Below, piece after piece: positions 10,091 to 40,685 of a stretch of DNA of 44,291 bases; within the stretch, counting starts at the first letter, position 1, and every line of letters begins with the position of its first letter. The notes below the pieces were generated by a model. That model ran no database searches and was not told where the DNA came from. It saw nothing but the letters and a program-made list of their open reading frames with translations. Source of the DNA: Phycisphaera sp. (GTDB taxonomy: Bacteria > Planctomycetota > Phycisphaerae > Phycisphaerales > Phycisphaeraceae); assembly GCA_016125215.1 (NCBI GenBank), contig WGMF01000001.1:1-44291 (forward strand), written 5' to 3'. A program made the translations under genes and the position numbers.

Positions 10091-10199
10091 GAGGACGGCC
10101 GGGCCCGATGCACGGGTGAGCTCATGAACCGGGTCAGGCCTTGACCGGAGCAGCCCTAAGTGTCGCCCGCCCGGTGCCGCCGGTGTCCTGGCCGTCCTC
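10091..10199 (+). ncRNA. ffs: Signal recognition particle RNA, small bacterial type
   Basis: The ends pair perfectly over about 10 bp: GAGGACGGCC at 10091-10100 with GGCCGTCCTC at 10190-10199. The centre holds the domain IV signature: GGTCAGG on the 5' side and GGAGCAGCC on the 3' side of the apical loop, which reads CCTTGACC. The loop contains UGAC, fitting the URRC loop class better than GNRA. The size, about 109 nt, suits the small bacterial SRP RNA that binds Ffh. Its place just upstream of dnaX is a common bacterial arrangement. A GC-rich hairpin (GCCCC-TTT-GGGGC) follows at about 10204-10217. Confidence 0.85.
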
Positions 10200-32081: not shown

Positions 32082-32588
<507 letters not shown>

Positions 32589-32613
32589 TAAAAAGCAAGT
32601 TTGCTGATTTTCA

Positions 32614-32642
32614 TTGACCCTACACACGGAACGGTTTATACT
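32614..32642 (+). promoter_or_regulatory. Sigma70-like promoter of the riboswitch operon
   Basis: TTGACC (32614-32619) and TATACT (32637-32642) with a 17-bp spacer, the strongest promoter by consensus in the window. Transcription would begin near 32650, 25 nt before the aptamer. Confidence 0.8.
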
Positions 32643-32674
32643 CCGTGGCACACAATTAAATAGCTCGATCGCAA

Positions 32675-32814
32675 CTTATCGAGAGTGGCTGAGGGATGGG
32701 CCCTGTGAAGCCACCGCAACCCCCAAGCCGGCCAAATATGACCGGAATCAAGGGACCGTGCGAACTCCCGCTCATCTTGAGGTGTCAACCCCACCCCACG
32801 ATGAGAAAGATAAG
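32675..32814 (+). promoter_or_regulatory. SAM-I (S-box) riboswitch aptamer
   Basis: Conserved S-box elements appear in order: P1 5' strand CTTATC (32675-32680) with GAGAG, the GAGGGA-TGGGCCC core, TGAAGCCACCGCAACC, the later GTGCGAACTCCCGC, and GATGAGAAA-GATAAG closing P1 (GATAAG at 32809-32814). The pseudoknot and kink-turn segments are in the expected places. Binding of S-adenosylmethionine should stabilise P1 and let the downstream terminator form. Confidence 0.95.
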
Positions 32815-32861
32815 AAGCGGCGACCACTCCCTACGGAACACCCCCCGAAAGGACCACCCGC

Positions 32862-32891
32862 CCCTTCTTATCCCGTAAGAAGGGTTTTTTT
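32862..32891 (+). terminator. Riboswitch-controlled terminator with antiterminator
   Basis: Stem CCCTTCTTA-TCCCG-TAAGAAGGG followed by seven Ts. Its 5' arm CTTCTTATC (32864-32872) is perfectly complementary to GATAAGAAG (32809-32817), which contains the 3' strand of P1. So P1 and the antiterminator exclude each other: SAM bound means P1 and terminator, SAM absent means antiterminator and read-through. Confidence 0.92.
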
Positions 32892-32987
32892 ATAACCCGG
32901 CCATACCGGTCAGACCAGACCACCCGCAGCCCACTACGATCCCCCCCAGTCACCCGTCACCCTTCCGGGGGTCACCCGTCACCCACC

Positions 32988-34253
32988 ATGCCCTACGTCA
33001 AATCCCTCACCTGTAAAGAATGCGGCACCGAGTACCCCATCGAGCCGCGCACCGTCTGCGACCACGATTTCGCGCCGGTCGAAGTCACCTACGACTACGC
33101 CGCGATGAAGGGCAAAATGACCCGTGCCTCCATCGAAGCCGGCCCGCGCTCGCTCTGGCGGTACCGTGACCTGCTCCCCATCAACAGTCAGCCGCGCGTC
33201 GGCCTCAACTCCGGCTATACCCCGCTCATCAAGGCGGACAACCTCGCCAAAGAGATCGGCGTCAAAGAACTCTACATCAAGGACGACAGCACCAACTACC
33301 CCACCTTCAGCTACAAAGACCGCGTGGTCAGCGTCGCGCTCACCAAGGCCCTCGAGTTTGGTTACGACACCGTCGGCTGTGCCTCGACGGGCAACCTCGC
33401 GCACAGCGTCGCCGCCCACGCCGCGAAAGCCGGCCTGCGCGCGTTTGTGATGATCCCGCACAATCTCGAGGAGGGGAAAGTCGTCGGCTCGTCCGTGTTC
33501 GGCCCGCGCGTCGTCCGCATCGACGGCAACTACGACGACGTCAACCGTCTCTGTTCCCAGATCGCTGACAAATACAAGTGGGCCATCGTCAACGTCAACC
33601 TGCGTCCGTTTTACACCGAGGGCGCCAAGACGCACGGCTTCGAGATTGCCGAGCAGATGGGCTGGAAACTGCCCAAACACACCGTCGTCCCCGTGGCCGG
33701 CGGAACGATCCTGCCCAAGATTTACAAGGCCTACCGCGAGTTCATCGAACTGGGTTTAGTGGAAGATAACCAGCCGAAGATGTATGCAGCCCAGGCGGCC
33801 GGCTGCAACCCGGTGGTCAAGGCGATCCAGGAGGGCAACGAACTCTTCCACCCGCAGAAGCCCAACACGATTGCCAAGAGCATCGCGATCGGCAACCCGG
33901 CCGACGGGTACTACGTCATCAAGATCATCCAGAAGTCACAAGGATGGGGCGAGAGTGCGACCGACCCGGAGATCGTCGAGGCTATCAAGTTGTTAGCCCG
34001 CACCGAGGGCATCTTCACCGAGCCCGCCGGCGGCACCACCCTCGCCTGTGCGGCCAAACTCATCCGGTCCGGCCGCATCCCCCGCGACGAGCCGATCTGC
34101 GTCTGCATCACCGGCAACGGCCTCAAGAGCATCGAGGTCATGCAGGGCCAGTTCGCCTCGCTGCCCGTCATCCCCGCCAAGATCGCCGAGTTCGTCAAAC
34201 TCGTCGAAGCCACCGAGGAACACACGCCGAACGCGACCAAGGCGACCGTGTAA
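32988..34253 (+). CDS. thrC: Threonine-synthase-like PLP enzyme under SAM control
   Basis: A 421-residue fold-type II PLP enzyme. The N-terminus has a zinc-ribbon-like CKECGTEYPIEPRTVCDHDF in which the usual last Cys is missing. It continues with GYTPLIKADNLAKEIG, the PLP lysine in PTFSYKDRVVSVALTKA, STGNLAHSVAAHAAKAG, VAGGTILPKIYKAYRE, and GIFTEPAGGTTLACAAKLI. Threonine synthase converts O-phosphohomoserine to threonine. Being first in a SAM-riboswitch operon with a sulfur carrier and its activator suggests sulfur chemistry on a homoserine ester instead. Plain threonine synthase regulated at the methionine branch point is the alternative. Two GTCACCCGTCACCC tracts precede the ATG, with no clear Shine-Dalgarno. 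Confidence 0.88.
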   Translation: MPYVKSLTCKECGTEYPIEPRTVCDHDFAPVEVTYDYAAMKGKMTRASIEAGPRSLWRYRDLLPINSQPRVGLNSGYTPLIKADNLAKEIGVKELYIKDDSTNYPTFSYKDRVVSVALTKALEFGYDTVGCASTGNLAHSVAAHAAKAGLRAFVMIPHNLEEGKVVGSSVFGPRVVRIDGNYDDVNRLCSQIADKYKWAIVNVNLRPFYTEGAKTHGFEIAEQMGWKLPKHTVVPVAGGTILPKIYKAYREFIELGLVEDNQPKMYAAQAAGCNPVVKAIQEGNELFHPQKPNTIAKSIAIGNPADGYYVIKIIQKSQGWGESATDPEIVEAIKLLARTEGIFTEPAGGTTLACAAKLIRSGRIPRDEPICVCITGNGLKSIEVMQGQFASLPVIPAKIAEFVKLVEATEEHTPNATKATV

Positions 34254-34256
34254 GAC

Positions 34257-34428
34257 TTTTCACCGCAGAGTTCGCGGAGAACGCGGAGAGGAGATAGAAG
34301 ACAGGAGTTAGGAGTTAGGAGACAAGATATCGGCTCATTTAGCCCGGTCGCTTGCGACCGGTGAACCAACCCTCTGAGATCATCAATCATCCATGGATTT
34401 CTCTGCGTCCTCTGCGCTCTCTGCGGTT
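34257..34428. repeat. Composite inverted-repeat element in the operon, gap 1
   Basis: The outer arm has 9-bp units CGCAGAGTT, CGCGGAGAA, CGCGGAGAG (34262-34291); its inverse TCTCTGCGTCCTCTGCGCTC with TCTGCGGT is at 34399-34428. Between them are AGGAGTT heptads (about 34303-34323), an ATTTAGC hairpin (34337-34361), and TCTGAGATCATCAATCA (from 34372). The carrier gene's ribosome site AGAAGGAG follows immediately. Confidence 0.85.
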
Positions 34429-34457
34429 ACATTCGACTGATTTAGAAGGAGCCCCCC

Positions 34458-34745
34458 ATGCCCGCCACCACCACCGTCACCATCGAGGTCCCCACCGCCC
34501 TGCGGCCGCAGGCCAACAACCAATCCACGGTCGAAGCCGCCGGCGGTTCGGTCAGGGAGGTCCTCGCCTCGCTCACCGCGCAGTTCCCCGAGTTGGGCAA
34601 GAAGCTCTTCAAAACCGAGGGCGAACTCAACCGCTTCATCAACATCTACGTCAACGACGAGGACATCCGCTTCATGGACAACCTCGACACCCCCATCAAG
34701 GAACGCGACGAGGTCTCCATCGTCCCCGCCATCGCGGGGGGATAA
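34458..34745 (+). CDS. MoaD/ThiS-type sulfur-carrier protein ending in Gly-Gly
   Basis: A 95-residue ubiquitin-like carrier: first strand TTVTIEVPTALRPQ, helix GSVREVLASLTAQFPELGKK, and the family C-terminus DEVSIVPAIAGG. The C-terminal GG is exposed by the stop codon itself, so no protease is needed before adenylation. Such carriers are adenylated by ThiF/MoeB-type enzymes and turned into thiocarboxylates that donate sulfur. AGAAGGAG gives strong translation. Placement in a SAM-controlled operon suggests methionine synthesis over molybdopterin or thiamine; no moaE or thiG is nearby. Confidence 0.92.
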   Translation: MPATTTVTIEVPTALRPQANNQSTVEAAGGSVREVLASLTAQFPELGKKLFKTEGELNRFINIYVNDEDIRFMDNLDTPIKERDEVSIVPAIAGG

Positions 34746-34750
34746 GAACA

Positions 34751-34901
34751 TTTACCGCAGAGATCGCAGAGTGCGCAGAGAAATCCATTGGTAATTAATG
34801 GTTTATCATCGATGATCTCAGGCTTTCAATGACCGATAGCACCGACGCAGCCTCATACTCTCTTTCTCCTCTCTGCGTCCTCTGCGATCTCTGCGGTGAA
34901 A
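34751..34901. repeat. Composite inverted-repeat element in the operon, gap 2
   Basis: The arm ACCGCAGAGATCGCAGAG with TGCGCAGAGAAA (34753-34783, 9-bp units) is repeated inverted as TCTCTGCGTCCTCTGCGATC with TCTGCGGTGAAA (34870-34901). Inside is a second inverted pair: CCATTGGTAATTAATGG (34785-34801) and the heptad relic TTATCATCGATGATCTCAGG (34803-34822), the latter an inverted TGAGATCAT core. Confidence 0.8.
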
Positions 34902-34917
34902 ACCGCTTGGAGTTCCC

Positions 34918-35169
34918 ATGCAAACCCAACGTAAATGCTGGCTGACCTTTGAGTCCGGGCGACAGAACGAACCCTGCCTCTGGAAGATGACGCGCAAGTA
35001 CCCCGACGTGATGTTCGACATCCGCCAGGCGTCGGTCCAGAAAGACATCGGCATCATGGCCGTGCTCTTCACCGGCCCGGAGGCCGACGTCGACGCAGCC
35101 TTGGCCTACCTCGTCGAACTGGGCGTCAAAGTCGACCCCGTCGAGGGTGGCTCGCTGGTGGCGGGGTGA
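34918..35169 (+). CDS. NIL-domain protein
   Basis: An 83-residue stand-alone NIL domain: RKCWLTFESGRQNEPCLWKM, a central VMFDIRQASVQKDIGIMAVL and the C-terminal EADVDAALAYLVELGVKVDP. NIL domains occur at the C-terminus of MetN (methionine ABC transporter) as ligand-sensing ACT-like folds and beside ferredoxins in alternative homocysteine routes. Here it sits between carrier and activator, so it may sense methionine/homocysteine or bind a sulfur donor; this is inference. GGAG lies before the ATG. A single Cys (about residue 20) is notable. Confidence 0.9.
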   Translation: MQTQRKCWLTFESGRQNEPCLWKMTRKYPDVMFDIRQASVQKDIGIMAVLFTGPEADVDAALAYLVELGVKVDPVEGGSLVAG

Positions 35170-35175
35170 GAAGAA

Positions 35176-35282
35176 ATGTCTGATGTCTGATGTGTGATGT
35201 CTGATGTCAGAAAATACACAACAAAGCAAACAATATCCCTATGACCACCACATCAGACATCAGACATCATACATCAGACATC
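35176..35282. repeat. TCAGACA-heptad inverted pair overlapping the thiF-like start
   Basis: ATGTCTGATGTCTGATG-type heptads (35176-35210) and, inverted, CATCAGACATCAGACATC-type heptads (35251-35282). The right arm lies inside the next gene, coding for SDIRHHTSDIA just after its ATG. Confidence 0.85.
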
Positions 35283-36392
35283 GCCCCCACCCTCGACCGC
35301 TACCACCGGCAGATGCTCCTGCCGGGGATGGGCGAGGAGGCGCAGCGCAGGCTCCTCAACGCCACCGCGCTGGTCGTCGGCTGCGGGGCATTGGGCACGG
35401 TGATTGCCAACATGCTCGCCCGCGCCGGGGTGGGGCACCTGGTGATCGTGGACCGCGACTTTATCGAGGTCACCAACCTGCAACGGCAGGTGCTCTTTGA
35501 CGAAGACGACGTCGAGCAGGCGATCCCCAAGGCCGAGGCCGCCAAACGCAAGATCGCCAAGATCAACTCGCAGGTGAAAGTCGATGCGATTGTCGACGAC
35601 GTGAACCACACCAACATCGAAAAGTTCATGACGATGGGCGACACCGGCATGGTCGACATTGTCGTGGACGGCGTGGACAACTTCGAGACACGTTTTGTCG
35701 TCAACGACGCGGCGGTCAAGAACCGCGTGCCCTACATCTACGGCGGGGCGGTGGGTTGTGTGGGGATGAGTTACGCGGTCCTGCCCCACAGCGCGGTGGG
35801 TAACAGCGACGAAACCCCGTGGGAAAAGGCGGGCAAGGCGACGCCGTGCCTGCGCTGCATCTTCGAGCAGGCCCCGCCGCCCGGAATCAATCCCACTTGT
35901 GATACCGCCGGCGTGCTCGGCCCGGTTGTGTCGATCATTGCCAACTACCAGTGCGTCGAGGCGATCAAGGTCCTCACGGGCAACTACAACGCGGTCAATC
36001 CGAACATGGTCTCCATCGATGTGTGGAACAACACGATGAAGCAGTTCAAGGTGGCTAAGGCTTACGACGTGGGCGAGTGCGTCTGCTGCAAGAAGCGAAA
36101 CTTCGAGTGGCTCGATGGCAAGTTCTCCAGCGGCACGACGACGCTCTGCGGCCGCAACGCGGTGCAGCTCACGCAGGCCCAGGACGCGGGCAAGCTCGAC
36201 TTCGACGAGATCGCCGGTCGTTTGCGTCCGCACGGCGGGGTGACCGCCAACAAGTTCATGATCCGCGCCGCGATCAAAGACAACGGTCAGGACTACGAGC
36301 TGACGCTTTTCAACGACGGTCGGGCTATCATCAAGGGCACCAAGCAGCCGAGCGTCGCCAAGAGCATCTACGCCAAATACATCGGTGCCTGA
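35241..36392 (+). CDS. ThiF/MoeB/HesA-type carrier-activating enzyme
   Basis: A 383-residue E1-like enzyme. After a repeat-derived start (MTTTSDIRHHTSDIA) comes DRYHRQMLLPGMGEEAQRRL, the ATP-binding VVGCGALGTVIANMLARAG, VDRDFIEVTNLQRQVLFDED with the Arg of adenylation, the zinc Cys pairs PCLRC (about 203-207) and CVCC (about 278-281), the candidate catalytic Cys in PTCDTAGVLGP, and a C-terminal domain ending FNDGRAIIKGTKQPSVAKSI that is common to this subgroup. It adenylates the Gly-Gly tail of the carrier two genes upstream. A rhodanese domain is absent. No other ATG can start the conserved domain. Confidence 0.92.
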   Translation: MTTTSDIRHHTSDIAPTLDRYHRQMLLPGMGEEAQRRLLNATALVVGCGALGTVIANMLARAGVGHLVIVDRDFIEVTNLQRQVLFDEDDVEQAIPKAEAAKRKIAKINSQVKVDAIVDDVNHTNIEKFMTMGDTGMVDIVVDGVDNFETRFVVNDAAVKNRVPYIYGGAVGCVGMSYAVLPHSAVGNSDETPWEKAGKATPCLRCIFEQAPPPGINPTCDTAGVLGPVVSIIANYQCVEAIKVLTGNYNAVNPNMVSIDVWNNTMKQFKVAKAYDVGECVCCKKRNFEWLDGKFSSGTTTLCGRNAVQLTQAQDAGKLDFDEIAGRLRPHGGVTANKFMIRAAIKDNGQDYELTLFNDGRAIIKGTKQPSVAKSIYAKYIGA

Positions 36393-36408
36393 CCCTGGGA
36401 GTTTAGTG

Positions 36409-36906
36409 ATGAGCCAGATGTCGCTAGTCGTCGGTCTGATGAAGATGAACCTGAATATGGTCGAGCCGCTCTTGAAGGGTGTGCCCGACGAGAAGTTGGC
36501 TTACCAGTCCGGCTCGTTCACCGGCCACGCGGCCTGGCAACTCGGGCATCTCGCTTCGAGTCTGGCGTTTGCCGGCTCGCTGTGCGGCGCCACTTACACG
36601 CTTCCGGACGGATGGCAGGAGAAGTTCGGCAACGGCTCCACGCCCACGCCCAACCGCGCGGATTACCCGAGTGCCGCGGCGCTTGTGGCCGAGGTGAAAA
36701 AGGCGACCGACGCACTGGCCGCACACCTGCCGAATGTAGATGAAAAAACGCTGACCGCACCTTTCCCCGACGAACAGTTCCGCGCGTTCTGGCCGACGGT
36801 CGGCGACGGGGTCGTCTTCCTTGCGACGACGCACGTGGCGTACCACCTGGGGATTCTTGCGGGGTGGCGTCGTGTGATCGGGCTGGGGTCGGCGTTCGGG
36901 TTTTAA
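36409..36906 (+). CDS. DinB-family protein
   Basis: A 165-residue four-helix-bundle protein of the DinB/YfiT type: LLKGVPDEKLAYQS, a His in FTGHAAWQLGHLASS, and a late ATTHVAYHLGILAGWRR, giving the usual three-His metal site. The family includes thiol-dependent transferases and many of unknown role. It begins 16 nt after the thiF-like gene with GGGAG upstream, so it could be the last gene of the SAM-controlled operon. Confidence 0.85.
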   Translation: MSQMSLVVGLMKMNLNMVEPLLKGVPDEKLAYQSGSFTGHAAWQLGHLASSLAFAGSLCGATYTLPDGWQEKFGNGSTPTPNRADYPSAAALVAEVKKATDALAAHLPNVDEKTLTAPFPDEQFRAFWPTVGDGVVFLATTHVAYHLGILAGWRRVIGLGSAFGF

Positions 36907-36939
36907 TATGGGATCATTCGTGACACCACAAAAGAAGAA

Positions 36940-36958
36940 CCGGGGATGACATCCCCGG
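36940..36958. terminator. Palindrome between the two DinB genes
   Basis: CCGGGGAT-GAC-ATCCCCGG followed by CTTTA. It is similar in plan (GGAT...ATCC core, CTTT flank) to the palindromes at convergent junctions and may end the operon. Confidence 0.55.
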
Positions 36959-36974
36959 CTTTATGGAGACGATT

Positions 36975-37463
36975 ATGTCCGCACTGATTGACGGTTTGCT
37001 GATCGGCTGGCACAAGAACGTCGAGTACATGAAGAAACTCGTGGCGGATGTTCCGCCGGAGAAGATGGCCTACCAGCCCCACGCAAAGATGAACCACCCC
37101 GCGTGGGTCCTGAGCCACCTGAACATCTACCACAGCCCGATGGTCTTGATGACGCGCGGCGAGTCGTTCACGGACGTGCGTGACCACAAATACGGCATGA
37201 CCAGCCAGTGCGTGGCGGACGCCTCGCTGTACGCCGGCAAGCAGGAGCTTATCGACGCCTTCATCCTCGGCCACGAAAAGGTCGAGGCCGCGATCAAGGC
37301 CATGGACGTGAAGGTCTTCGACAGACAGACCCCGCTCGAACGCTGGCGTTCGACGATGCCGCTGATCGGCAACGTGCTCCCTTACCTCATGCTCGTGCAT
37401 GAATCGACGCACATCGGGCAACTCAGCGCCTGGCGCCGCGCGCAGGGGATGCCCAGCGTGTGA
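36975..37463 (+). CDS. Second DinB-family protein
   Basis: A 162-residue DinB-fold protein: KKLVADVPPEKMAYQPHAKM, NHPAWVLSHLNIYHSP with His ligands, a central helix pair, and the last His in MLVHESTHIGQLSAWRRAQG. GGAG at 36965-36968 lies 6 nt before the ATG at 36975, favoured over the ATG at 36963, which overlaps the ribosome site. It is a distant paralogue of the preceding gene. Confidence 0.85.
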   Translation: MSALIDGLLIGWHKNVEYMKKLVADVPPEKMAYQPHAKMNHPAWVLSHLNIYHSPMVLMTRGESFTDVRDHKYGMTSQCVADASLYAGKQELIDAFILGHEKVEAAIKAMDVKVFDRQTPLERWRSTMPLIGNVLPYLMLVHESTHIGQLSAWRRAQGMPSV

Positions 37464-37486
37464 TGTGGTCGGTATCCACTGAAAAT

Positions 37487-37516
37487 AAAGCGGAGGGATC
37501 GCCATCCCTCCGCTTT
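37487..37516. terminator. Palindromic bidirectional terminator
   Basis: AAAGCGGAGGGAT-CGCC-ATCCCTCCGCTTT, flanked by AAAAT on the left and GCTTTTATT on the right. It lies at the convergent junction of the second DinB gene and the peroxidase gene. The same 26 stem bases recur at 41418. Confidence 0.75.
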
Positions 37517-37541: not shown

Positions 37542-39266
37542 TCACGGTTTTCGTCGTCGGATCGACAGCGCCAGACCGACCAGGCCCATCGCGCCCAGCG
37601 ACGCGGTGAGCGGTTCGGGGACGCTCACGGTGTCGGTGACGAACATCGCCAGCAGTTGCATGTCGTGGATGTTCGTGTTGTCCATGATGATGCTCGAGAG
37701 GCAGACCGAGTTGAGGTCGAAGACGCCGTCCTGCTGGAACATGAGCAGGTCGGGGTCGTCGATGTAGAAGAATCGGTCGCCGTCGCGCAGGCGTGTGAAC
37801 TGGTCGATGAGGACCTGAGCCATGAGCGAGCCAACCTCGGCGCCTTGCATGTGGTCTTCTGTCAGCAGGCCGACCCACAGGTCGATGTTGTCGACATTTC
37901 CGTAGAGGGACAGGAGGTCCGCGGCCAGAACGGGGTCGCTGGTGAGGTCGGAGAAATCGACCAGCGGTGCCAGGCCGTAGTACTGGCGGAGGCTGTTGTA
38001 ATCGGGCAGGCCGTGGTCCCGACCGCGCTGGATGTTCAGTGAAGCGAGGTCAAACCCACTGCTACCGGGCGGGCCGAAGAGGAAATTGCGAACGTCGTCG
38101 ACGACCTGGTTATCGATGGTCTGCATCGACTGGTGTGCCATGCCGTTGAGCAGGCGTTCGACATTGAGCGGATCGCCCCCGGAAGCGGTCTGGAAAAAGC
38201 CGGGGTTGAAGAAAGAGTTGAGGAGGTTCACGGTGCCCATGTCTGAACCGTCAGCGCCCTTGAGCTGGAGCGTCGAGGAGAGCATGGTGTGGCCGAGCCG
38301 GTAGGCGGCGGTGGAGAATTCGTTGAGGATGGTGGCATCCACGCTTGGGTCGTAGAGGTAGTCCGTGGCTTTGGGCGCGGCTGATCCGAGCAGCGTGGGC
38401 AGGAACTCCTGATAGGTGATGTGCTGCACCTCGGCGGCGACGATCTTGCGGGCCGCCTGGAAGATTGTTTCATCGTAGGCGACGGGGTCGAGGTTGTAGG
38501 TCGTGGCAATGAGGTTGGCCAGTCGGTTGTGCTCACGGACGAAGAGCGTGTGCATCGCGGTCAGGCCGACTTGTTCATTGGCACGCTCGTCGCCGGCGAG
38601 GAAGAGGTCGCTCCCCGTCCCGCCGGCGTTGGGCAGGCCGAGTGTGTTGAAGGGTAAGAGGTCGCCGCTGCTCGTGGCCATGAGTCCGCCTGTGTGGGCA
38701 CGCAGCGCGTCGGCGCGGAGAGAGTCCGAGCCGTAGACGTTAGAGGCGTCGATGTAGGATGTGATGTTGTTGATCTGTTCGCGCGGCGTACCGGGCACGC
38801 CGGTACCTGCCGAAGCGGTGGAGCGGTTGAGTGCGATGGTTTGTGTGCCGGTGGAGAAGGGGTCGAAGTAGGGGTCACCCGTGGGCACGGGGATGTTGAA
38901 GGCTTCGTTGCCGGTGGGCGAGAGGTCGATGTCGTGGTCGAGGAATTGGCCCCACTGCCAGACGAGGTCGCTCATCATATGGGCATTGGGTTTCGAGCCG
39001 ACCTGTGCCGCGACTTTGTTGCTGATCTCCCGTGCGCTGGGCCTTATGGTGATGGGGGTGTTGTAACCGTCGGCGTAGGTGGCAGGCAGGAGTCGGGCCA
39101 GTTGTGAGCCGGCCATGCCCCAGTCGGTGTGGGTCAGGTTGTTGCCCGAGCCGTCGATGGTGCGCACATCGGAGACGACAGCGACAGCCCGGCTTGGAGA
39201 CAGCCAACCCACAGCCGCCAACGCAGCGACAGCACACACGACAAGCTGCCCAGATCGGTTGTTCAT
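37542..39266 (-). CDS. Exported heme peroxidase with PEP-CTERM tail
   Basis: A 574-residue protein with a signal peptide (VVCAVAALAAVGWLSPSRAVA) followed by an animal-type (peroxinectin-like) heme peroxidase domain: distal WGQFLDHDIDLSP with His and Asp, LFVREHNRLANLIA, the proximal YRLGHTMLSS, and SLNIQRGRDHGLPDYNSLR. The C-terminus is a PEP-CTERM sorting tail: VPEP (from residue 549), a short hydrophobic helix and RRRKP. PEP-CTERM proteins are processed by exosortase and placed on the cell surface. GGAGAAAGG lies before the ATG. Confidence 0.93.
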   Translation of the reverse strand: MNNRSGQLVVCAVAALAAVGWLSPSRAVAVVSDVRTIDGSGNNLTHTDWGMAGSQLARLLPATYADGYNTPITIRPSAREISNKVAAQVGSKPNAHMMSDLVWQWGQFLDHDIDLSPTGNEAFNIPVPTGDPYFDPFSTGTQTIALNRSTASAGTGVPGTPREQINNITSYIDASNVYGSDSLRADALRAHTGGLMATSSGDLLPFNTLGLPNAGGTGSDLFLAGDERANEQVGLTAMHTLFVREHNRLANLIATTYNLDPVAYDETIFQAARKIVAAEVQHITYQEFLPTLLGSAAPKATDYLYDPSVDATILNEFSTAAYRLGHTMLSSTLQLKGADGSDMGTVNLLNSFFNPGFFQTASGGDPLNVERLLNGMAHQSMQTIDNQVVDDVRNFLFGPPGSSGFDLASLNIQRGRDHGLPDYNSLRQYYGLAPLVDFSDLTSDPVLAADLLSLYGNVDNIDLWVGLLTEDHMQGAEVGSLMAQVLIDQFTRLRDGDRFFYIDDPDLLMFQQDGVFDLNSVCLSSIIMDNTNIHDMQLLAMFVTDTVSVPEPLTASLGAMGLVGLALSIRRRKP

Positions 39267-39512: not shown

Positions 39513-40685
39513 GTGTCCGACCTGACCTATTTCGACAACGCCGCCACGAGTTTCCCCAAGCCCCCGCAGGTCGGGCAGGCGATGGCGAAGTTCCTGGCTG
39601 AGGACTCGGCCAACCCCGGTCGGGCAGGCCACCGCATGGCCGTCGCCGCCGAACGCATGCTCGATGACTCCCGGCTCAAGCTCACCCGCCTCTTCGACGC
39701 CCCCGACCCGCACCGCATGGTCTTTGCCCTCAACGGGACCGATGCGCTGAACATCGCCATCAAGGGCGTCATCACATCGCACGTCAATAGCAACGGCCAC
39801 AAGCCGCACGTCATCACCACGGTGCTCGAACACAACTCGGTGAGCAGACCTCTTGTGGCGCTGGAGCAGGCCGGTGCGATCGAGCTGACGCGCATCGATT
39901 GCGATGACCAGGGGCTGATCGACCCGGACGACATCCGCAAGGCCGTCAAGCCTAACACCCTGTTAGTCGCCCTCACGCACGCCTCGAACGTGCTGGGCAC
40001 GATCCAGGACGCCGCCGCGATAGGCCGAATCACCCGTGAGCTCGGCGTACTCTTTCTGCTCGACGCCGCGCAAACCGCCGGCTGCGTGCCCGTCTCGGTC
40101 AAGGCGATGAACATCGACCTGCTTGCGTTCCCCGGTCACAAGTCGCTGCTGGGCCCGACGGGGACGGGCGGTTTGTATGTGGGCCAGGGTGTCGACAAGA
40201 TCACGCCGTGGCGCGAGGGCGGCACGGGCGGCGACTCCTCCACACCCACGCAGCCCACACTTTATCCCTACCTCCTCGAAGGCGGCACGCCCAACACGGT
40301 CGGCATCGCGGGTCTCTCGGCCGGTGTGGATTTCGTCCTCACGCACGGCATCGACCACGCGCTGCAACACGAACAGGCGATGGTGGCCCAAATCCTCGAA
40401 CGCTTCGGCGGCGACGACCGTTTCACCTTCTACGGCTCACGCGACCCCCGCAAGCACGTCGGGACACTGTCTCTCAACATCGAGGGCTACGACGCGCCGG
40501 ACCTCGGCGCCATCCTCGACGACAGCTTCGGCATCGCCGTCCGACCGGGCCTGCACTGTGCCCCGTACATCCACAAACGCATCGGCACCTTCCCCGACGG
40601 CGCGGTCCGTATCAGCCCCGGCGTCTTCAACACCGACGAACAACTGGCCCACCTCTGCGACGCCCTCGAACAGGTCGCGGGGTGA
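39513..40685 (+). CDS. Class V aminotransferase, cysteine-desulfurase-like
   Basis: A 390-residue PLP enzyme with a GTG start: LTYFDNAATSFPKPPQVGQA, TTVLEHNSVSRPLVALEQAG, ALTHASNVLGTIQDAAAIGR, LFLLDAAQTAGCVPVSVKAM, the PLP lysine in FPGHKSLLGPTGTGGLYVG, and the late GIAVRPGLHCAPYIHKRIGT with a Cys where SufS-like desulfurases hold theirs. It resembles the group annotated as 'aminotransferase class V / cysteine desulfurase'. It might supply sulfur for the ThiF-like system 3 kb upstream, but it is not in the same operon; that link is inference. Confidence 0.85.
   Translation: MSDLTYFDNAATSFPKPPQVGQAMAKFLAEDSANPGRAGHRMAVAAERMLDDSRLKLTRLFDAPDPHRMVFALNGTDALNIAIKGVITSHVNSNGHKPHVITTVLEHNSVSRPLVALEQAGAIELTRIDCDDQGLIDPDDIRKAVKPNTLLVALTHASNVLGTIQDAAAIGRITRELGVLFLLDAAQTAGCVPVSVKAMNIDLLAFPGHKSLLGPTGTGGLYVGQGVDKITPWREGGTGGDSSTPTQPTLYPYLLEGGTPNTVGIAGLSAGVDFVLTHGIDHALQHEQAMVAQILERFGGDDRFTFYGSRDPRKHVGTLSLNIEGYDAPDLGAILDDSFGIAVRPGLHCAPYIHKRIGTFPDGAVRISPGVFNTDEQLAHLCDALEQVAG

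Follow-up and report, generated by a model that had tools for sequence, protein, structure and literature searches.

A SAM riboswitch operon of Phycisphaera sp. as a probable MetM/MetO-type route to homocysteine

Positions 1 to 44,291 of contig WGMF01000001.1 (Phycisphaera sp., phylum Planctomycetota, assembly GCA_016125215.1; genome of 4.04 Mb, 98.25% complete) were analysed and are called the window below. The subject is a gene cluster at 32614-36392, where genes for the ribosomal proteins S12 and S7 (named by eye) are followed by a promoter-like site, a SAM-I leader, which senses S-adenosylmethionine (SAM), and four genes on the plus strand. These encode a threonine synthase (ThrC)-like enzyme dependent on pyridoxal 5'-phosphate (PLP), a sulfur carrier, a NIL-domain protein and an E1-like protein of the ThiF/MoeB family. 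The features are as follows.

32614-32642, + strand: sigma-70-like promoter TTGACC-17-TATACT, 30 bases before the aptamer, suggestive by its position only
32673-32816, + strand: SAM-I riboswitch aptamer (S box), RF00162, full length, 71.7 bits, E 5.8e-15
32809-32872, + strand: antiterminator, in which the P1 3' strand (32809-32817) pairs exactly with 32864-32872 in the fold of 32806-32892
32862-32891, + strand: intrinsic terminator, a hairpin (32862-32884) with a 10-pair stem, then 7 T
32988-34253, + strand: MetM-like (threonine synthase-like PLP) enzyme, proposed O-phosphohomoserine-dependent homocysteine synthase, 421 amino acids, PALP 228 bits
34458-34745, + strand: ubiquitin-like sulfur carrier (MetO/CysO-like), 95 amino acids, C-terminus AIAGG, ThiS 61.8 bits
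34918-35169, + strand: stand-alone NIL-domain protein, proposed methionine sensor, 83 amino acids, NIL 43.5 bits, relative of the NIL-type domain of MetN
35241-36392, + strand: E1-like adenylyltransferase (ThiF/MoeB family) with C-terminal extension, proposed carrier-activating enzyme, 383 amino acids, ThiF 236.6 bits, start codon uncertain

The aptamer scored above the Rfam gathering score, and an expression platform was present as well. The 3' strand of P1, GATAAGAAG (32809-32817), has its exact reverse complement in CTTCTTATC (32864-32872), and the fold energy of 32860-32892 was -12.8 kcal/mol. Because the P1 3' strand exactly complements the 5' arm of the terminator, a closed aptamer is predicted to free the terminator, which would make the leader an off-switch for SAM. 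An earlier annotation made from the letters alone, the sequence-only reading, had described this aptamer with its terminator correctly. It had also claimed a strong promoter; the motif TTGACC-17-TATACT was indeed found, but the scan of 32400-37500 gave 1 match and shuffled sequences likewise 1.0, so only its position is suggestive. No terminator-like site was seen on the plus strand 3' of 32884 in the scan of the same region, and we infer that the four genes form one transcript.

The ThrC-like enzyme, the GG-ending carrier, the NIL protein and the ThiF/MoeB protein, all named on one strand by the sequence-only reading, were each recovered by profiles. In addition to the scores listed, the enzyme reached 292 bits against TIGR00260 (cut-off 167) and 297.6 bits against NF006050, below the cut-off of 303, and the carrier reached 61.2 bits against SAMP1 (cut-off 60). 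Uba4, ThiF and MoeB were the closest solved relatives of the E1, whose cysteines C203, C206, C220, C280 and C283 were kept in 35 to 38 of 38 sequences.

MetM of Streptomyces albulus is a homocysteine synthase converting O-phosphohomoserine (Hasebe et al. 2024, AEM 90:e01247-24, as cited in PMC12172450); the carrier gene there is metO, and a SAM riboswitch lies upstream of metM (cited in PMC12172450). The proposal of the sequence-only reading, a ThrC-like acceptor enzyme that uses O-phosphohomoserine, matches this route. A homolog from Nonomuraea (a plasmid collection record of 11.85 Mb), with 51.5% identity, is preceded by SAM-I and followed by a carrier that ends in GG. Since the Nonomuraea locus has the layout cited for S. 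albulus, we consider it quite probable that the window holds a MetM/MetO-type homocysteine operon under SAM control.

Sequences of more than 120 bits and more than 300 residues were used for the tree and the residue counts, shorter ones, among them that of L065, being left out (L numbers denote loci and G numbers genomes). The MetM-like proteins (n = 111) were split from 31 other ThrC proteins with a support of 1.0 (FastTree), and the same split had a UFBoot value of 100 in a tree of 57 of the 142 sequences, including 26 MetM-like ones; the f27 genes formed no clade in the tree. L137, V114, V185, N186, R206, Y209, D306 and G307 were fixed in all 111 MetM-like proteins, and none of these residues was shared by more than 3 of the 31 others. 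The residue after the kept STGN was L in 111/111 MetM-like proteins, in the others T (23/31) or A (8/31), and the window enzyme does not have the STGNT loop of canonical threonine synthase. The threonine after STGN probably helps to position the water used in threonine formation, and a switch to sulfur in place of water would be in keeping with its absence. The cyanobacterial loci L189 and L202 fell inside the MetM-like set, and a Microcystis homolog is 51.6% identical to S. albulus MetM (PMC12172450). By sequence criteria, we assign the window enzyme to the MetM lineage rather than to canonical ThrC, an assignment that rests on the shared layout and the cited Microcystis-MetM identity, the S. 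albulus MetM sequence itself being outside the comparison.

In the window's genome (G000), the PF00291 profile found four proteins: the window enzyme, a CysK-like (L001) and a TrpB-like protein (L004), both labelled by eye, and a threonine synthase (L003), the 515-residue product of a second, canonical thrC (TIGR00260, 233 bits), such as the sequence-only reading had advised looking for. A plain threonine synthase as the sole reading for the window was rejected, and we agree with the earlier annotation that it leaves the carrier, NIL and ThiF genes unexplained. Three ThiS/MoaD-type carriers are encoded: the window's, a ThiS identified by TIGR01683 (L212) and one beside a MoeA-like gene (L213, by eye). 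A service of the window's carrier to thiamin or molybdopterin was also rejected, since a separate ThiS (L212) and the GG-ending carrier beside the MoeA-like gene (L213) are available. With separate thrC, ThiS and MoaD present, both outcomes that the sequence-only reading had regarded as fatal to its idea, an enzyme needed for threonine in a genome with no other thrC and a carrier with ThiF serving molybdopterin or thiamine, were not observed as far as genomics can say. ThrB was not found in this genome at E ≤ 1e-8; a proposed homoserine kinase of TIGR02535 was present (482 bits, cut-off 446).

A scan of named genomes yielded at least 588 confirmed relatives of the enzyme, the best 80 of which are loci L127-L206 (L128 is probably the same locus as L035 of G111). 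The names among these 80 comprise Phycisphaerae, Nitrospirae, Omnitrophota, Acidobacteria, Verrucomicrobia, Deltaproteobacteria, Binatota, Methylomirabilota, Rokuibacteriota, Nitrospinae, Aquificota, Cyanobacteria, Chloroflexi, Armatimonadetes and others, and the enzyme of L132 is 80% identical to the window's. A carrier lay close downstream of the enzyme in at least 64 of the best 80 loci, which is a lower bound because the distance rule dropped L131 and L136, where the carrier frames overlap the enzyme frame; in five of the 80 loci, fewer than 400 bases follow the enzyme. The same set contained NIL in 42 loci, E1 in 31, a carrier-NIL fusion in 5 and an open reading frame (ORF) with a JAMM-like motif in 9. 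SAM-I was found upstream on the same strand in 31 of these loci (30 within about 1.2 kb, L142 at 2.2 kb). The gene set and its switch, for which the sequence-only reading had suggested a search in related genomes, thus recur across phyla with carrier, NIL, E1 and often SAM-I.

Same-strand neighbours in the best 80 loci were CysK-type and canonical thrC PALP genes (31 loci), E1 (25), homoserine dehydrogenase (7), JAMM (6), aspartate kinase (6), the proposed homoserine kinase TIGR02535 (4), CysH (3) and Rrf2-like genes (3); one representative of each family was named, except for the Rrf2-like genes, which were assigned by eye. TIGR02535 stands in one same-strand gene run with a MetM-like gene and ThrC in L143, and at least nine Nitrospirae-type loci, one of which was checked, hold a MetM-like gene and canonical ThrC in one cluster. 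The carrier's best solved relative was 3dwg_C (1.5e-20), which we take to be CysO in complex with CysM. This closeness, together with the CysK-type and CysH genes of the related clusters, would suit a role of the set in the synthesis of cysteine, or of some other sulfur amino acid, with O-phosphoserine as substrate and a carrier like CysO. We regard such a function as highly improbable, because the genome has the CysK-like L001 (by eye), the enzyme scores with threonine synthases and not with CysK/CysM, and homoserine dehydrogenase, aspartate kinase and the proposed homoserine kinase recur nearby.

Among 199 sampled genomes of the phylum, 32 have an ortholog of the enzyme, the window's included. 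The 31 other orthologs show 49-73% identity, and further listed ThrC matches 26-42%. A carrier adjoins or lies near the enzyme in 17 genomes, again counting the window's. SAM-I was found upstream in 14 of the 24 phylum loci, out of 31, that were scanned with Rfam; the remaining L057-L063 were scanned with an in-house model only. The in-house model also found SAM-I upstream in L036. Among L052-L063, SAM-I occurred only in L053 and L060, about 2.2 kb upstream of the enzyme. The order in L053:69-3755 (G146) is SAM-I, a homoserine dehydrogenase-like ORF (by eye), ThrB (TIGR00191) and the MetM-like gene; in L060:6217-9989 (G115), SAM-I precedes a homoserine dehydrogenase (NF004976, 510 bits) upstream of the MetM-like gene. 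Judged from their gene order, these clusters may be threonine or homocysteine operons under SAM control. ThrB also precedes the enzyme in G131. Elsewhere in the genomes G086, G136 and G022, ThrB and a carrier of this type are 1.3 kb apart. The proposed homoserine kinase of the window's genome and the hom and thrB context of these loci would fit a supply of O-phosphohomoserine, and they bear only indirectly on its conversion to homocysteine.

The position of the carrier bears on a further explanation, in which the ThrC-like enzyme is a homocysteine synthase that uses free sulfide, while carrier and E1 serve elsewhere (for example MetY, a cysteine synthase or tRNA thiolation). It would be in keeping with the absence of a carrier adjacent to the enzyme in L052-L063, with the recurrence of CysK-type genes in the clusters (one representative checked), with the relationship of the carrier to 3dwg_C, presumably CysO of the CysM complex, and with the presence in the window's own genome of MetY, which is said to be the acceptor of the Wolinella route. 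Na2S, moreover, was added to mimic MetM activity (PMC12172450). We nevertheless consider the free-sulfide explanation doubtful, given the carrier close behind the enzyme in at least 64 of the best 80 loci and in the actinobacterial locus.

A genome of the phylum was counted as being without a real PF01053 enzyme when its best match had E > 1e-30, which applied to 19 of the 199. Seven of these 19 have the MetM-like enzyme (G070, G088, G106, G114, G138, G168 and G182) and six have DUF39, G114 having both. In the six with the MetM-like enzyme and neither DUF39 nor PF01053, there was no MetX match either (MetA, PF04204, was not searched). G070, G088, G106 and G168 are each 99% complete, and G088 is in one contig. 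MetX was found in 2 of the 32 MetM-like genomes (the window's and G111), compared to 53 of the 167 others. Fisher p values were 0.002 for MetX and 0.018 for the lack of PF01053; they ignore the kinship of the genomes and are only indicative.

Among the named genomes behind the best 80 loci, 50 were tested, of which 34 had no PF01053 at E ≤ 1e-30, completeness figures not being part of this set. The 34 include four Aquificota (L193, L195, L204 and L206) and the Phycisphaerales of L130 and L132; the genome of L127 has a PF01053 fragment. DUF39 was absent in 18 of the 20 tested among these 34, the four Aquificota included, and the two with DUF39 are the cyanobacterial genomes of L189 and L202; MetX was not searched in the named genomes. 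The carrier starts 12 bases after the enzyme in L195 and L206, L193 has no adjacent carrier, and in L204 (titled Aquifex aeolicus) the 633 bases left beyond the enzyme contain none. In several genomes, the MetM-like set is the only homocysteine candidate found. At least one homocysteine route is left to discover according to Price et al. (2018, PMC5764234), who name A. aeolicus, Pyrolobus fumarii and Acidimicrobium ferrooxidans. As the Aquificota loci come from genomes without PF01053 or DUF39, MetM/MetO is a candidate for the missing Aquifex route.

In an alignment of 81 carriers, 14 of which were trimmed at the GG motif or end there, glycine occupied the two GG positions in 79 and 80 sequences, respectively. 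Of the 64 carriers near the enzyme in the best 80 loci, 22 stop exactly at GG, 34 extend by 1-21 residues, 5 run on into a NIL domain, and 3 were missed by the tail pattern, which overlooked the L202 carrier although this does end in GG. Within the phylum, carrier-NIL fusions with an internal GG are present at L036:7037-7600, L041:6717-7280, L045:5130-5711, L048:5288-5863 and L049:4414-4917. Judging from this arrangement, sulfur loading of a fused carrier would require cleavage, or the fusion is never loaded. The sequence-only reading had expected a pathway without a protease step. This fits the window's genome and G111, the single other genome of its family in the sample, where the search for Prok-JAB (PF14464) gave no match (the JAMM model PF01398 was not searched) and the carriers stop at GG, but it does not extend to the relatives at large, as Prok-JAB was present in 23 of the 25 genomes tested. 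The converse fails, since the carriers of G185 and G138 stop at GG and yet both genomes have Prok-JAB. In G185, L050:2692-4592 contains a JAMM-motif gene and then a gene whose single product combines a carrier with a ThiF-type E1 and, at its end, a rhodanese-like part (the last assigned by eye). A MetM-like gene under SAM-I control, accompanied by a carrier, lies about 1 kb downstream.

The NIL-type domain of MetN binds methionine. The profile of the NIL protein matched MetN chains (3dhx, 4.4e-10), no conserved cysteine was found among 47 aligned sequences, and no other Pfam domain was found in the window's NIL protein. The match to MetN and the lack of a conserved cysteine make a ligand sensor likelier than a sulfur carrier, so that of the two roles offered by the sequence-only reading, sensing of the product gains and handling of sulfur loses ground. 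The carrier-NIL fusions suggest, at the level of domain order, methionine control of the sulfur carrier itself.

Several observations weigh against the assignment of the window to a homocysteine route, or limit it. The genome encodes MetY on another contig (TIGR01326, 658 bits, cut-off 495) and, 365 bases from it, MetX, with 445 bits against a model cut-off of 500 that no genome scanned reached, controls included; SAM-I was not found near either gene. Another likely homocysteine route thus exists in this organism beside the operon, and because MetX and MetY are present, the MetM/MetO route would be redundant or conditional here. Seven of the 19 phylum genomes without PF01053 (G012, G014, G053, G073, G075, G091 and G175) lack DUF39 and the MetM-like enzyme alike. 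Six of them are less than 80% complete, G012 being 97% complete, and the seven may be auxotrophs or use yet another route. No carrier is adjacent to the enzyme in L052-L063, and hom-thrB followed by a ThrC-like gene, as in L053, is also the layout of a threonine operon. In 11 of the 32 phylum genomes with the enzyme (G021, G022, G047, G068, G086, G104, G115, G120, G136, G146 and G193), no match other than the MetM-like protein was seen at E ≤ 1e-20. Strong PF01053 enzymes are present in each of the 11, and in this branch the MetM-like protein may make threonine. Since members from these genomes at L053-L063 share the fixed L137, this residue does not prove function. The window enzyme itself scores above the TIGR00260 threonine synthase cut-off. 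The Microcystis homolog, finally, was reported to be a threonine synthase and deaminase that does not seem to fill the whole MetM role in vivo (PMC12172450). In favour of the assignment, on the other hand, a fall in methionine caused by threonine induced both the homolog and the carrier gene in Microcystis, and supplied methionine brought the homolog's expression back to control (PMC12172450).

Alternatively, the window enzyme could be an additional threonine synthase, or one that is also a deaminase, which SAM switches off at the branch point. The best solved relatives of the enzyme were threonine synthases (E ~1e-60), the Microcystis homolog was reported to make threonine and alpha-ketobutyrate (PMC12172450), and 11 of the 32 genomes showed no other ThrC relative. 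The last search, however, can miss a real ThrC, as five genomes from the order of the window's organism, all nearly complete (G002, G034, G077, G095 and G172), gave no match at all. We judge a threonine synthase in the window unlikely, because the genome has a canonical thrC, the two kinds are clustered in the Nitrospirae-type loci mentioned, and neither the carrier, E1 and NIL genes nor the genomes without any other homocysteine enzyme found would be accounted for.

For the MetM/MetO-type operon, the following mechanism is proposed. At low SAM the leader would form the antiterminator and the operon would be read, and at high SAM the aptamer would close and the terminator stop transcription. 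The ThiF/MoeB-like E1 would adenylate the carrier's C-terminal glycine, and the carrier would become a thiocarboxylate with sulfur from a desulfurase or sulfide, as expected for these families. The ThrC-like enzyme would open O-phosphohomoserine with loss of phosphate, as threonine synthase does, but where that enzyme adds water at C-beta, this one would add sulfur at C-gamma and so yield homocysteine. Methionine is the most likely ligand of the NIL protein, as it is of the related domain of MetN, and the NIL protein may tune carrier, E1 or synthase by feedback. In the window's genome this would be a SAM-regulated second route beside MetX/MetY, used perhaps when sulfide is scarce or sulfur comes from a different source.

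As a wider and more tentative proposal, which we find plausible without relying on it, MetM/MetO could supply homocysteine in many bacterial phyla, and in Aquifex too, as a major route that has gone largely unrecognised. In its full form, the route would include a dedicated E1 and a methionine-sensing NIL protein that gates the carrier and is sometimes fused to it behind GG, so that a JAMM cut would be needed before sulfur loading; the window would represent a streamlined version that has lost the protease and whose carrier stops at GG. The basic idea of a carrier-linked ThrC-like homocysteine route is already in print (2024). Four features look new, namely an operon that includes E1 and NIL, the fusions of carrier and NIL, a variant lacking Prok-JAB, and the Aquificota candidate, no print match having been found for them in a literature search that did not cover the full text of Hasebe et al. 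(2024) and most subscription papers. If the proposal is true, many "threonine synthases" scoring with TIGR00260 are homocysteine synthases, and several genomes seemingly unable to make methionine are able to do so. Textbook methionine synthesis uses fold type I enzymes to put sulfur on C-gamma; a ThrC-type (fold type II) enzyme adding sulfur there would stand apart from these. The Aquifex homocysteine gap (PMC5764234) would become directly testable with one enzyme and one carrier.

The gaps along the operon measure 204, 172 and 71 bases, and inverted repeats are abundant in them. Repeats of the type CACCGCAGAGATCGCAGAG lie between the first three genes at 34257-34298, 34381-34428, 34743-34800 and 34861-34902; this type had 8 matches in the window compared to 0.21 expected, 7 of the 8 in these gaps and some overlapping. 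The NIL-ThiF gap contains the inverted repeat ATGTCTGATGTCTG at 35176-35281 with 32-nt arms (94%). Because it encodes the first residues of the listed ThiF ORF, the ThiF start codon is doubtful. Immediately 3' of the operon are two tandem DinB_2-family genes (36385-36906 and 36963-37463), followed on the minus strand (37542-39266) by a gene for an animal-type haem peroxidase with a PEP-CTERM sorting signal. The bacterial small SRP RNA is located at 10097-10196 (+). A possible sulfur source lies further downstream.

39513-40685, + strand: cysteine desulfurase family protein (TIGR01977), possible sulfur source, 3.1 kb downstream with other genes between

In L036 and L041, a gene of the TIGR01977 family stands directly 3' of the ThiF gene.

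Compared with known systems, the window is closest in layout to MetM/MetO of S. albulus, with which it shares the ThrC-like enzyme, the adjacent GG-ending carrier and the SAM riboswitch upstream; as far as the accessible account goes (PMC12172450), it differs by the E1 and NIL genes in the same gene run and by a genome without a Prok-JAB match. With canonical threonine synthase it has in common the PALP fold, the PLP lysine region and the best solved relatives, and it differs by L for T/A after STGN, by the other fixed changes and by the canonical copy elsewhere in the genome. CysO-CysM-Mec of Mycobacterium tuberculosis is a cysteine route with a fold type II PLP enzyme and a phosphorylated substrate. 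The fold type is shared and, under the proposal, so is the phosphorylated substrate, and CysO is presumably the closest solved relative of the window carrier, whereas enzyme family and product are different and no Prok-JAB match was found in the window's genome. The Wolinella route reportedly has MetY with an acyl-homoserine as acceptor and a JAMM protease step. In this HcyS/HcyF/HcyD/MetY route, a carrier and an E1 feed homocysteine (cited in PMC5764234 and PMC6225789), as proposed for the window, where, in contrast, the proposed acceptor is ThrC-like, MetY lies on another contig near MetX, and Prok-JAB gave no match. The DUF39 route with NIL/ferredoxin (PMC5764234) is similar in that a NIL domain takes part in homocysteine synthesis, whereas the window's genome has no DUF39 and its NIL protein stands alone and carries no conserved cysteine.

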